A stretch of 64,000 nt of DNA from Bryobacteraceae bacterium (lineage in GTDB: Bacteria > Acidobacteriota > Terriglobia > Bryobacterales > Bryobacteraceae): the NCBI GenBank assembly GCA_026002855.1, contig BPGD01000001.1, forward strand, positions 806,001 to 870,000. Reading direction: 5' to 3'. A program made the position numbers and the translations under genes. Within the stretch, counting starts at the first letter, position 1; each line of letters begins with the position of its first letter. The notes beneath the pieces are model-generated. The model was not told the DNA's origin and did not search any database. It worked only from the letters and a program-made list of their open reading frames with translations. Below are positions 24,422-51,501 of this stretch, one piece after another.

Positions 24422-25753
24422 GTGTTTCCACTGCAAGCCGTGAACCTCAGCCAGACTCTGCGCGAAATGGGCGTCGTCGGGGCCGGCGGCGCGGGCTTCC
24501 CCACGGAAGTCAAGGCCGCCTCGAAGGCCGAGTACGTGCTTGCCAACGGCGCCGAGTGCGAGCCGCTGCTGCACAAGGATTACGAGCTGATGAAACGCTA
24601 CCCGGAGGAGATCGTCTCCGGCATGAAGCGCATGATGGAGGCCGTCTCCGCCACGGAAGGCCGCTTCTGCGTGAAGGAAAAGAACCGGGAGGCGGTGGAA
24701 GCCGTCGAGCCGGTGGCGCGCAGGGCGGGCATCGGCCTCACCCTGCTCGGCGACTTCTACCCCTCCGGCGACGAGTACGAAATCGTCTACGCCGCTACCG
24801 GGCGGCTGATCCCGCCGGCGGGCATTCCGCTTCAGGTCGGCTGCGTCGTCAACAACGTGGAGACGCTGCTCAACGTGGAGCGCGCCGCCCGCGGCGAGCC
24901 CGTCACGCAGAAGTTCGTCTCCATCAGCGGCGCGGTCAGGCGGCCGTGCGCCTTCTGGGCGCCGGTCGGCACGAGCTTCGCCGACCTGATCGCGGCGGCC
25001 GGCGGCATGACCGTCGAGCGCGCCGGCGTCTTCGTCAGCGGCATCATGATGGGCACGCTGACGTTTGACCTCTCCGGTGTCGTCACCAAAACCACCTGCG
25101 GTCTCATCGTGCTGCCCGAGGATCACATGCTCGTCGAGCGCCGCAGCCGCCCGGCGCAGGCGATGGCCCACATCGGCAAGAGCGCCTGCGACCAGTGCAG
25201 CTACTGCACCGAGTTCTGCCCCCGCTACCTGCTCGGCTATGACGTGCAGCCCCACAGGGTGATGCGGACTCTCGGCTTCACCCTCAGCGGGAAGGAGAAC
25301 TGGAGCCAGTGGGCCGAGCTCTGCTGCGCCTGCGGGCTGTGCACGCTCTACGCCTGCCCCGAAGACCTGTACCCGAAAGAGGCCTGCGACCAGGCCAAGG
25401 CCGACATGCGCGCCGCCGGCCTCCGCTACGTTCAGACCAAACCGGTGCGTGTCCATCCGATGAAGGAATACCGGCGCGTGCCGCAGACGCTGCTGCGGCA
25501 GCGCCTCCAGGTGGAATCCTACGAGACGCCCACGCCCTTCACCGGCGCCGGGCCCGAGCCGGCGCGCGTGCGGATCCTGACCAGACAGCACGCCGGCCGG
25601 CCGGCCACCCCGGTGGTGGCCGAAGGCCAGCGCGTCCAGCGAGGCCAGCTCATCGCCCGCATGAACGAGGGCGAGCTCGGCGCCTTCGTTCACTCGAGCA
25701 TCAGCGGCCGCGTCGTGCGCGTCACCGCCGAGGCCGTGGAGATCGAAGCCTGA
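24422..25753 (+). CDS. pduS: PduS-like SLBB/4Fe-4S flavoprotein (RnfC-related electron carrier)
   Basis: 443 residues from GTG (a second GTG six codons in is possible). PduS in propanediol microcompartments is an FMN/Fe-S protein that passes electrons from NADH to cobalamin. Seen: glycine-rich nucleotide motif VGAGGAGFPTEVKA (near residue 18), ANGAECEPLL, VVNNVETLLN, an SLBB region (KFVSISGAVRRPCAFW), and two 4Fe-4S motifs CDQCSYCTEFCP (from residue 256) and CCACGLCTLYACP (from 301). The C-terminal RPATPVVAEGQRVQRGQLI is a lipoyl/barrel-sandwich-like part. Twenty bases downstream is a PduT-like shell protein, the same pairing as in pdu operons, which favours PduS over RnfC. No signature enzyme is nearby. 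Confidence 0.88.
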   Translation: MFPLQAVNLSQTLREMGVVGAGGAGFPTEVKAASKAEYVLANGAECEPLLHKDYELMKRYPEEIVSGMKRMMEAVSATEGRFCVKEKNREAVEAVEPVARRAGIGLTLLGDFYPSGDEYEIVYAATGRLIPPAGIPLQVGCVVNNVETLLNVERAARGEPVTQKFVSISGAVRRPCAFWAPVGTSFADLIAAAGGMTVERAGVFVSGIMMGTLTFDLSGVVTKTTCGLIVLPEDHMLVERRSRPAQAMAHIGKSACDQCSYCTEFCPRYLLGYDVQPHRVMRTLGFTLSGKENWSQWAELCCACGLCTLYACPEDLYPKEACDQAKADMRAAGLRYVQTKPVRVHPMKEYRRVPQTLLRQRLQVESYETPTPFTGAGPEPARVRILTRQHAGRPATPVVAEGQRVQRGQLIARMNEGELGAFVHSSISGRVVRVTAEAVEIEA

Positions 25754-25773
25754 TTCAGGGAGAGAAACGCATC

Positions 25774-26325
25774 GTGACACGCAATTCCATCGGGCTCATC
25801 GAACTGTCCAGCATCGCCGCCGGCTTTGAGGTCTGCGACGCCATGCTCAAGGCGGCCGACGTCGAACTCGTGCTCGCGCGGACGATTTGCAGCGGCAAGT
25901 ACATGGTGCTGGTGCGAGGCGACGTGGCCGCCGTCCGCGCCGCCGTCGAGGCCGGCTCCCAGGCCGGCGATTTCTCGGTGATCGACACGTTCGTCATTCC
26001 CAACGTCCATGAGGACATCTTCCCGGCGATCAGCGGCACGGCCGTGACGGGCGAACTCGAGGCGCTCGGCATCGTCGAATCGTTCTCCGTGGCCAGCCTC
26101 ATCGAGGCCGCCGACGCCATGGCCAAGACGGCCAACGTGCGCCTGGTGGAAGTGCGCCTCGCCATGGCCCTCGGCGGCAAGGCCTTCGCCTCCTGCACGG
26201 GCAGCGTCGCGGCCGTGCGCGCCGCCGTCGAGGCCGGCGCCCAGACGGTCGCGCGCAAGGGCCTGCTCGTCAACAGGGTCGTCATCCCCCAGCCCCGCCC
26301 CGAACTGCTGCGCGAAATGATCTGA
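25774..26325 (+). CDS. pduT: PduT-like tandem BMC-domain shell protein (BMC-T)
   Basis: 183 residues from GTG, with AGGGAGAG eight bases upstream. Two BMC domains: residues 5-90 (SIGLIELSSIAAGFEVCDAM to SVIDTFVIPNVHEDIFPA) and 96-183 (ALGIVESFSVASLIEAADAM to LLVNRVVIPQPRPELL). Such proteins form pseudohexameric trimers in microcompartment shells. The first domain has TICSGKY with Cys39, matching the Cys of PduT that holds a 4Fe-4S cluster at the trimer pore. That makes electron transfer across a shell the likely role, with the upstream PduS-like protein as partner. No other shell gene (hexamer or pentamer) lies in the window. Confidence 0.92.
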   Translation: MTRNSIGLIELSSIAAGFEVCDAMLKAADVELVLARTICSGKYMVLVRGDVAAVRAAVEAGSQAGDFSVIDTFVIPNVHEDIFPAISGTAVTGELEALGIVESFSVASLIEAADAMAKTANVRLVEVRLAMALGGKAFASCTGSVAAVRAAVEAGAQTVARKGLLVNRVVIPQPRPELLREMI

Positions 26326-49652: not shown

Positions 49653-51501
49653 GAAAGACATTATCGTCGGCACGGCCGGCCACATTGATCACGGCAAGAC
49701 GGCGCTGGTGCGGGCGCTGACGGGGATCGACACCGACCGGCTGGAAGAGGAGAAGCGCCGGGGCATCTCGATTGATCTGGGCTTCGCGCATCTGGAGACG
49801 GGCGAGGTGCGGTTCGGATTTGTCGATGTTCCCGGCCACGAGCGATTCGTGAAGAACATGCTGGCGGGGGCGGGCGGCATGGATCTGGTGGTGCTGGTGG
49901 TGGCCGCCGATGAGGGGGTGAAGCCGCAGACGCGCGAGCATTTTGCCATCTGCCGGCTGTTGGGCGTCCGGCACGGGATGATCGCGCTGACCAAGAAAGA
50001 CCTGGCCGACGGGGAGATGCTTGAGCTGGCGCGGGCGGAGACGGCCGAGCTGGTGCGCGGGTCCTTCCTGGAGGGCGCGCCGGTGGTGGCGGTGAGCGCA
50101 GTAACGGGCGAGGGGCTGGACCGGCTGCGGGAGGAACTGGTGCGGCTGGCCTGGCGCGTGCCGGCACGGGACGCGGCGGGAATCCCGAGGCTACCGATTG
50201 ACCGGTCGTTCACATTGAGGGGCTTCGGCACGGTGGTGACCGGGACGCTGGTGGAAGGCAGGCTTCGCGGGGGCGAAGAGGTGGAAGTGCAGCCGGGCGG
50301 GCGGCGGCTGCGGATCCGCGGGCTTCAGGTTTACGGGCGGCCGGTGGAGGAGGCACTGGCGGGCCAGCGCACCGCGGTGAACCTGGCGGGCGTCGAGGCG
50401 GGCGAGCTGCATCGGGGGATGACGCTGACGCGGCCGGGCGTGTGGGAGGCGACGGGCATTGTGGACGTCCGACAGGAGCTTTTGACCGGGGCGCCGCCGC
50501 TGCGTCATGGTACGCCAGTCCATTTTCACGCCTGGACGGCGGAGACCGAGGCCGAAGTGCGGCTGTTTTCTGCGGCGGCGCCTGTCGAGCCGGGTGAGAG
50601 TGGCCTGGCGCGCCTGCTACTGCGGGAGCCGGTGTTGCTGAAGCCCGGCGACCGGTTCATCGTGCGGAGGTTCTCGCCGCTGGAGACGATTGGGGGCGGG
50701 GTGGTCATCGACACGCAGCCGCCGCTGCGAATGAAGAAGGCGCTGGCGGCGGCGAGGCTGGCGGAACTGGAGGGCGCGGCGATCGAGCGGCGACTGGCGC
50801 TGTGGGCGGCGGAAGAGCCGAAAGGCGCGGTGGCGGCGCGGCTGGCGGCGCGCGCCGGGCTGGCGCCCGAACAGTTGCCGGTGCTGATGGCCGCGGCCGG
50901 ACTGATGCTGCTGCGGGGCGATCCGGTGCGCGTGACGACGCGGGAGAGAGTGCTTGAAGAAGCAATGCGGTTGCGAGAACGTGTGGAGCAGTTCCACCAT
51001 GAAAACCCGCTGCTGCCCGGGATGCCGCGGGCCTCGGCAGGGCTTGACGCAGGATGGCTGGAGGCGGTGCTGGCGGCGGACGAGGAGATGGTGGCGGAGG
51101 GCGACGTGCTACGGCTGCGCAGGTTCACGCCGGTGCGTCAGGCCGAAGAAGCAGCGGCCGAAGAGCGGATCGAGCGGGTGTTCCGGGAGGCCGGGCTGGC
51201 CGCGCCGGCGGTGCGCGAGGCGCTGGAGCGGGCGGGCGTGGATGAGACAAAGGCGCGGACGTTGTTGCAACTGATGATCAAAGACGGAAGGCTGGTGCGG
51301 GTGACGCCGGAGCTGATCTTTCACCGGGAGGCGATTGCGCGGCTTCGGCAAGAGCTGGCGCGGAGAAAGGGCCGGCGGTTCAGCGTCGGCGAGTTCAAGG
51401 AGTGGACGGGGGTTTCGCGGAAGTATGCGATCCCGCTGCTCGAATTTCTGGACCGGGAGCGGGTGACACGACGGGAGGGCGACCGGCGGGTGGTGGTGTG
51501 A
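49651..51501 (+). CDS. selB: Selenocysteine-specific translation elongation factor
   Basis: 616 residues with GGAG before the ATG. SelB carries Sec-tRNA to UGA codons that have a SECIS hairpin. Seen: G1 [31 protein letters not shown]3 [12 protein letters not shown], and TKKD as G4 (the family often has TKxD). Domains II-III run to about residue 340 ([21 protein letters not shown]), then winged-helix repeats that bind SECIS, ending in [22 protein letters not shown]. Full length. selA, selD and tRNA-Sec are not seen here, and no in-frame UGA-interrupted gene was found, so its targets lie outside. Confidence 0.95.

Follow-up and report, generated by a model that had tools for sequence, protein, structure and literature searches.

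A detached PduS-PduT-like gene pair as a probable satellite of a dispersed microcompartment in Bryobacteraceae

The stretch of 64,000 nucleotides analyzed here, referred to as the window, covers positions 806001-870000 of a single-contig Bryobacteraceae genome of 4,437,915 bases that is rated 100% complete, and it contains two adjacent plus-strand genes, S and T, related to the pduS and pduT genes of bacterial microcompartments (BMCs). The first (window positions 24422..25753) encodes a PduS homologue of 443 amino acids with a Complex1_51K domain for flavin mononucleotide (FMN) and NADH (141.2 bits), an SLBB domain (39.7 bits), a Fer4_17 domain for two 4Fe-4S clusters (57.1 bits) and a C-terminal RnfC_N domain (52.6 bits). 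All four scores exceed the Pfam cut-offs, and the same four domains have been named for PduS (PMC6325248). The protein carries a glycine-rich GAGGAG motif and the tetracysteine motifs CxxCxxCxxxC and CxxCxxCxxxxC, with the spacing found in Citrobacter PduS (PMC2982820); by eye, a GTG at 24440 offers an alternative start. Although RnfC chains are its best solved relatives, we rejected an assignment as RnfC because the TIGR01945 score of 227.8 bits is below the curated cut-off of 245.95; the RnfC_N domain is C-terminal here. The second gene (25774..26325) has a GTG start and encodes a PduT-like tandem BMC-T subunit of 183 amino acids, with both PF00936 domains placed at 25786-26295 and a cysteine, Cys39, in the motif TICSGKY. 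A Shine-Dalgarno-like GGGAG, recognized by eye on the plus strand at 25758..25762, lies between the S stop and the T start. The best solved relatives of the T protein are 3nwg, 3pac and 3n79 (named PduT), and at the aligned position of Cys39, 3pac and 3nwg also have a cysteine and 3n79 a serine. The domain searches, the intergenic gap and the alignment thus bear out the original prediction of a PduS-like gene followed 20 bp downstream by a PduT-like tandem BMC gene with its cluster cysteine, while the domains, the cysteines and the substitution ratios given below argue against chance open reading frames (ORFs), a reading that we rejected.

The same prediction had described the pair as an orphan without a microcompartment locus in the window. 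This holds for shell genes within the window, as all PF00936 and PF03319 matches beyond those of T itself lie outside it, but the word orphan does not hold for the genome. Genome-wide, PF00936 detects six BMC domains in four places, the window pair included, and PF03319 detects three BMC-P genes in a row; BMC-H and BMC-P are therefore both present outside the window. A BMC-H gene followed by the three BMC-P genes occupies positions 2341714-2342826 of the genome. At 2822209-2824378, a second BMC-H gene precedes the gene for a 619-residue acylating-type aldehyde dehydrogenase, which is nearest to acetylating acetaldehyde dehydrogenases, and at 281313-282949 a second tandem BMC-T gene accompanies a DHDPS-family (PF00701) aldolase (L012:8313-9949, minus strand; L and G numbers are our handles for loci and genomes). 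The fifth place has no shell gene, and its ORFs at 3387637-3390494 encode an aldehyde dehydrogenase (PF00171) and a class II aldolase (PF00596). These two enzymes have helix-like termini that by eye resemble encapsulation peptides, and they share 63% and 59% identity, respectively, with their counterparts in the relative G038, which has a complete PVM-like locus. Only one PduS was found in the genome. That the genome encodes BMC-H, three BMC-P and enzymes whose termini resemble targeting signals at other places, together with this single PduS, supports one of the two options raised in the original prediction, namely a satellite belonging to a distant microcompartment locus, and is in line with the test that the same prediction had set for a simple satellite.

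A survey of 200 genomes of the order shows how closely the pair and the shell genes go together. PduT matched 130 genomes at 1e-10, from which 56 weak matches (E of about 3e-13 or worse) were dropped and 74 (4e-42 or better) kept; PduS matched 83 at 1e-30, with five dropped at 32-34% identity (G041, G082, G117, G139 and G187) and 78 kept; and the aldehyde dehydrogenase matched 136 at 1e-60, with 12 dropped (AdhE-like at about 40%, or about 35% only) and 124 kept. By these counts 74 genomes have T, 78 have S and 74 have both; BMC-P is present in 125 and the aldehyde dehydrogenase in 124. Four genomes have S without T, and in each of them the S match ends at most 50 bp from the end of its contig. 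BMC-P is present in 68 of the 74 genomes with both S and T, compared with 57 of the 126 others (Fisher p 6e-12, uncorrected for kinship), and 118 of the 124 genomes with the aldehyde dehydrogenase also have BMC-P.

The residues expected to hold iron-sulfur clusters are conserved across the order. Cys39 of PduT is a cysteine in 74/74 orthologues, the present one included, while its other cysteines vary (Cys21 is found in 50/74 and Cys141 in 19/74). For PduS, cysteines were checked in 75 genomes, including the present one, wherever the alignment covers the position; those at 256, 259, 262 and 266 are kept in 74/74 readable genomes, those at 301, 304 and 307 in 73/73, and that at 312 in 72/73, with one gap. 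Loss of the cluster cysteine in relatives would have argued against electron transfer, and none of the 74 orthologues has lost it. The invariance of Cys39 strengthens the idea of an electron conduit without proving it. Compared with the two closest relatives scored, PduS has ratios of nonsynonymous to synonymous substitution rates (dN/dS) of 0.10 and 0.11, and PduT has ratios of 0.017 and 0.064; more distant pairs reach up to 0.42 for S and 0.35 for T.

The two genes also stay together. In 70 of the 74 genomes, S immediately precedes T on the same strand with less than 300 bp between them, and in the remaining four they are on different contigs. We compared the flanks of the pair in 20 relatives and the window over as much as roughly 9 kb on either side, identifying genes with a home-made rule based on codon positions. 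Apart from S and T, no family is present in more than three of these loci, which led us to reject the idea of a further, unrecognized conserved gene next to the pair. No relative of another microcompartment gene is found in the flanks of 17 of the 20 relative loci. The other three (G038, G064 and G109) have a diverged S-T pair, at 43-58% identity, beside a complete PVM-like locus, with PduL-like, acetate-kinase-like (by eye), BMC-H, BMC-P, aldehyde dehydrogenase and aldolase neighbors. A scan of named genomes gave 48 loci, 38 of which have acidobacterial names, and 24 of these are Bryobacteraceae, Bryobacterales or Solibacter/Solibacteraceae; the closest is a Bryobacteraceae locus (L159) with an S that is 90% identical. 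By these matches, too, the host would probably be a member of the Bryobacteraceae. In the flanks of all 48, some of which are short, no relative of the other microcompartment proteins of the present genome was found. Among the named loci, one is labeled Acidimicrobiia and nine at 54-61% are labeled Melioribacteraceae, Ignavibacteriales, Ignavibacteriae, Ignavibacteriaceae or Chlorobiota or have no group label. In these nine non-acidobacterial, mostly Ignavibacteria-type loci (L183-L187, L191, L192, L200 and L202), PduS is 54-61% identical and T is adjacent in seven. It is possible that the S-T module has moved between phyla.

In the wider phylum, where the searches were for PduT homologues and BMC-P, a PduT homologue (1e-20) is present in 55 of 396 genomes, the present one included. 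BMC-P is found in 50 of the other 54, and for at least 29 of these 54 the PduT and BMC-P genes are no more than 10 kb apart. Outside this order PduT is therefore often within a microcompartment locus, whereas in this family it is mostly detached.

Taken together, the shell genes and enzymes elsewhere in the genome, the co-occurrence across the order, the conserved cysteines and the pair beside a complete locus in three relatives support the reading that the S-T pair is a two-gene satellite, or satellite-like, locus of a microcompartment whose genes are scattered over five chromosomal places; we give this reading, which is drawn from sequence comparison, a probability of roughly 0.78. In such an organelle, PduT would be built into the shell as a trimer whose pore carries a single 4Fe-4S cluster, with Cys39 of every subunit as a ligand. 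The place of PduS would be at the inner face of the shell, where it would oxidize NADH made by the encapsulated aldehyde dehydrogenase or dehydrogenases, and single electrons would travel from its FMN through its two 4Fe-4S clusters to the PduT cluster and on to a cytosolic acceptor. NAD+ would thereby be regenerated inside the compartment, and this export route could replace an alcohol dehydrogenase. The substrate would presumably be an aldehyde from the class II aldolase, the DHDPS-family aldolase or both. The precedent comes from Citrobacter, whose PduS contains FMN and two 4Fe-4S centers, depends on NADH and binds PduT, and for which the authors suggest that electrons pass out of the compartment (PMC2982820). 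By analogy, PduS probably oxidizes NADH of the lumen here and PduT probably passes the electrons outward.

Several observations weigh against this reading. The co-occurrence was counted over related species, without correction for kinship, and 53 of the 200 genomes have BMC-P and neither S nor T, which makes the pair optional rather than essential. The T protein scores 134.6 bits with the PduT equivalog TIGR02526, under its cut-off of 250.3, and for this reason we use the label PduT-like. The 619-residue aldehyde dehydrogenase likewise falls under the NCBIfam equivalog cut-offs shown, and the targeting peptides were judged by eye. Finally, PduL (PF06130) was searched for in six genomes and detected in G038 alone; the present genome is among the five without a match, so the chemistry of the lumen would not be the textbook one.

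In this model, incorporation of the pair into the shell, the direction of electron flow, NADH as donor, the cytosolic acceptor and the substrate are all inferred. Two rival readings give the pair or PduS a different role. In the first, PduS and PduT would carry cytosolic reducing power into the lumen. One proposal for glycyl-radical microcompartments is that PduS assists in reducing the activating enzyme; the role of PduS and PduT in glycyl-radical loci is regarded as open in the same review (PMC6325248). Among the genes scanned here, with no genome-wide search made, there is no glycyl radical enzyme or activase, and the potentials measured in Citrobacter (-150 mV for the PduS cofactors, -262 mV for the flavin and +99 mV for the PduT cluster) favor flow from NADH through PduS to PduT (PMC2982820). 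We consider inward flow unlikely. In the second, PduS would supply reduced cobalamin to a B12-dependent signature enzyme, as in pdu operons, and Citrobacter PduS is indeed a corrin reductase (PMC2982820). However, the microcompartment genes scanned here encode aldolases and aldehyde dehydrogenases, in a scan that covered part of the neighbors and included no genome-wide search for diol dehydratase or EutBC, and a cobalamin reductase seems quite improbable in this setting.

The original prediction had also raised a shell-free use of the BMC trimer, in which PduT trimers and PduS would form a cytosolic Fe-S electron relay that is independent of a closed microcompartment. This would be consistent with the absence of other microcompartment gene relatives from the flanks of 17/20 and 48/48 loci, and with the six of 74 S-T genomes that lack a BMC-P match: G124 (99% complete), G164 (92%), G182 (88%), G191 (84%), G001 (81%) and G158 (79%). 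G124 is the best candidate, as it seems to lack both BMC-P and the aldolase, its class II aldolase search giving a single weak match of 53.7 bits in a 735-residue frame. In the wider phylum, four of the 54 genomes with a PduT homologue have no BMC-P: G257 (98% complete), for which the sample offers no genome of the same genus, G303 (91%), G290 (88%) and G335 (67%). Against this, the genome with the window holds the full set of shell gene kinds, and S-T tracks BMC-P across the order. Four of the six exceptions (G124, G158, G164 and G182) retain BMC-H and the aldehyde dehydrogenase on the same contig, while the other two are among the less complete assemblies, G191 having a 40-position BMC fragment besides PduT and G001 having PduT only. 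Moreover, the shell genes span about 1.1 kb and the class II aldolase is adjacent to them in G022 and G026, so that a single gap in the assembly could be enough to lose both. BMC-P is present in same-genus relatives of G303, G290 and G335. The shell-free reading therefore has little in its favor, and we regard it as very improbable. There is a similarly slim chance that in some lineages, with G124 and G257 as candidates, S-T outlived the closed shell and now serves as a free or BMC-H-associated Fe-S relay, in which case gene dispersal would have been the enabling step. That the pair is the decaying, now functionless relic of a former operon, as its detachment from other microcompartment genes might suggest, is already contradicted by the two intact frames, the retained cluster cysteines, the dN/dS of 0.017-0.11 against the two closest relatives and the S-T linkage in 70/74 genomes, and is next to impossible.

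The satellite reading places the pair among several known systems. The pdu operons of Citrobacter freundii share with it the PduS domains, the glycine-rich and two tetracysteine motifs and a tandem-BMC PduT with an aligned cysteine (PMC2982820), but the pair stands alone here and its T falls under the curated PduT cut-off. GRM1, GRM3 and GRM5 loci also encode S and T together and no B12 enzymes, and GRM5 loci additionally encode a class II aldolase (PMC6325248, PMC4207490), whereas the present genes are dispersed and include no glycyl radical enzyme among those scanned. Candidatus Solibacter usitatus has two PVM-like loci, one of them without BMC-P, that may jointly make one organelle (PMC4207490). 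The present genome differs from PVM and PVM-like loci in having shell, core enzymes and electron pair at separate places, and in that PduL was not found. The ACI type of Acidobacteria described by Sutter et al. (2021) comprises a BMC-P triplet, BMC-H and a class II aldolase with a C-terminal encapsulation peptide, with an aldehyde dehydrogenase on a satellite locus (PMC8217296); a hydroxyacid dehydrogenase (PF00389/PF02826) also belongs to the type. The BMC-P triplet, the BMC-H and the satellite aldehyde dehydrogenase are found in the present genome, and in G022 and G026 the aldolase lies beside the shell genes. The present genome, in contrast, has no aldolase beside its shell genes, from which its aldolase with a targeting-like tail is separated by about 1 Mb. 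Because its shell locus lacks the aldolase, we have not filed the system as ACI; as far as the main text of that paper goes, PduS is unmentioned (PMC8217296). Satellite loci are a defined class (Axen et al., PMC4207490), in the terms of which our pair is perhaps better called satellite-like because it includes PduS. No stand-alone S-T satellite is described in the titles and abstract openings searched, though supplementary tables may record one. What is new here is the detached electron module and the dispersal over five places, not a new device.

Additional observations concern the enzymes of the scattered loci. The DHDPS-family aldolase has, by eye, an encapsulation-like C-terminal tail, and it adjoins the second BMC-T in all five relatives that were chosen for having that BMC-T; it may serve a second substrate. 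A selA gene lies beside the aldehyde dehydrogenase and class II aldolase of the fifth place (L090:7637-11762, equal to G000:C1:3387637-3391762). The 619-residue aldehyde dehydrogenase is followed by a 161-residue protein (L011:10399-10884) with no Pfam or NCBIfam match at 0.001, and ORFs of 162-166 residues follow the aldehyde dehydrogenase in G022, G026, G052 and G124.

In 19 of the 124 orthologues of this aldehyde dehydrogenase (L070-L079, L085, L086 and L135-L141, orthologues of L011:8519-10378), an in-frame TGA occupies the same position within the linker that precedes the conserved C-terminal domain; the enzyme of the present genome has no such stop. The hexamer TGACTG is found in 19/19 and the preceding residues are GG(Y/F)(S/G/T) in 12/19. 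The distance from the TGA to the C-terminal domain is 22 to 40 residues with the frame intact throughout, and the domain behind it has a ratio of nonsynonymous to synonymous differences (pN/pS) of 0.28 (36 codons, all pairs, not tree-corrected), by which its codons seem to be under constraint. G169 additionally has a TAA near the start of the frame, and in a further relative, G152, a TAG follows GGYG and no tail was detected. At the site of the TGA, the linkers of 21 TGA-less homologues cannot be aligned with confidence. CxC-type cysteines occur in the linker of many of the TGA-less homologues and upstream of the TGA in several of the TGA forms, and the predicted folds behind the TGA differ among 12 examined. 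The selenocysteine elongation factor SelB was rejected as a marker of recoding, since it exceeds its cut-off in 39 of 40 genomes (19/19 with the TGA and 20/21 without it) and does not discriminate; at a looser E-value the family also matches 14/14 control genomes. A SelB gene over the TIGR00475 cut-off lies in the window itself, at 49660-51492 on the plus strand. The TGA is a candidate for programmed readthrough or selenocysteine insertion that would give two forms of the enzyme and, if the recoding is real, these would be a short one and a long one that carries the microcompartment-type domain.

For the biology of this family, our analysis suggests that where microcompartment genes are dispersed, the electron-export part can be a separate module that is kept or lost independently of the shell. 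Surveys of microcompartments that are based on loci may miss such detached parts. Relatives that have the shell and the aldehyde dehydrogenase, with and without S-T, provide a natural contrast for the question of electron export.
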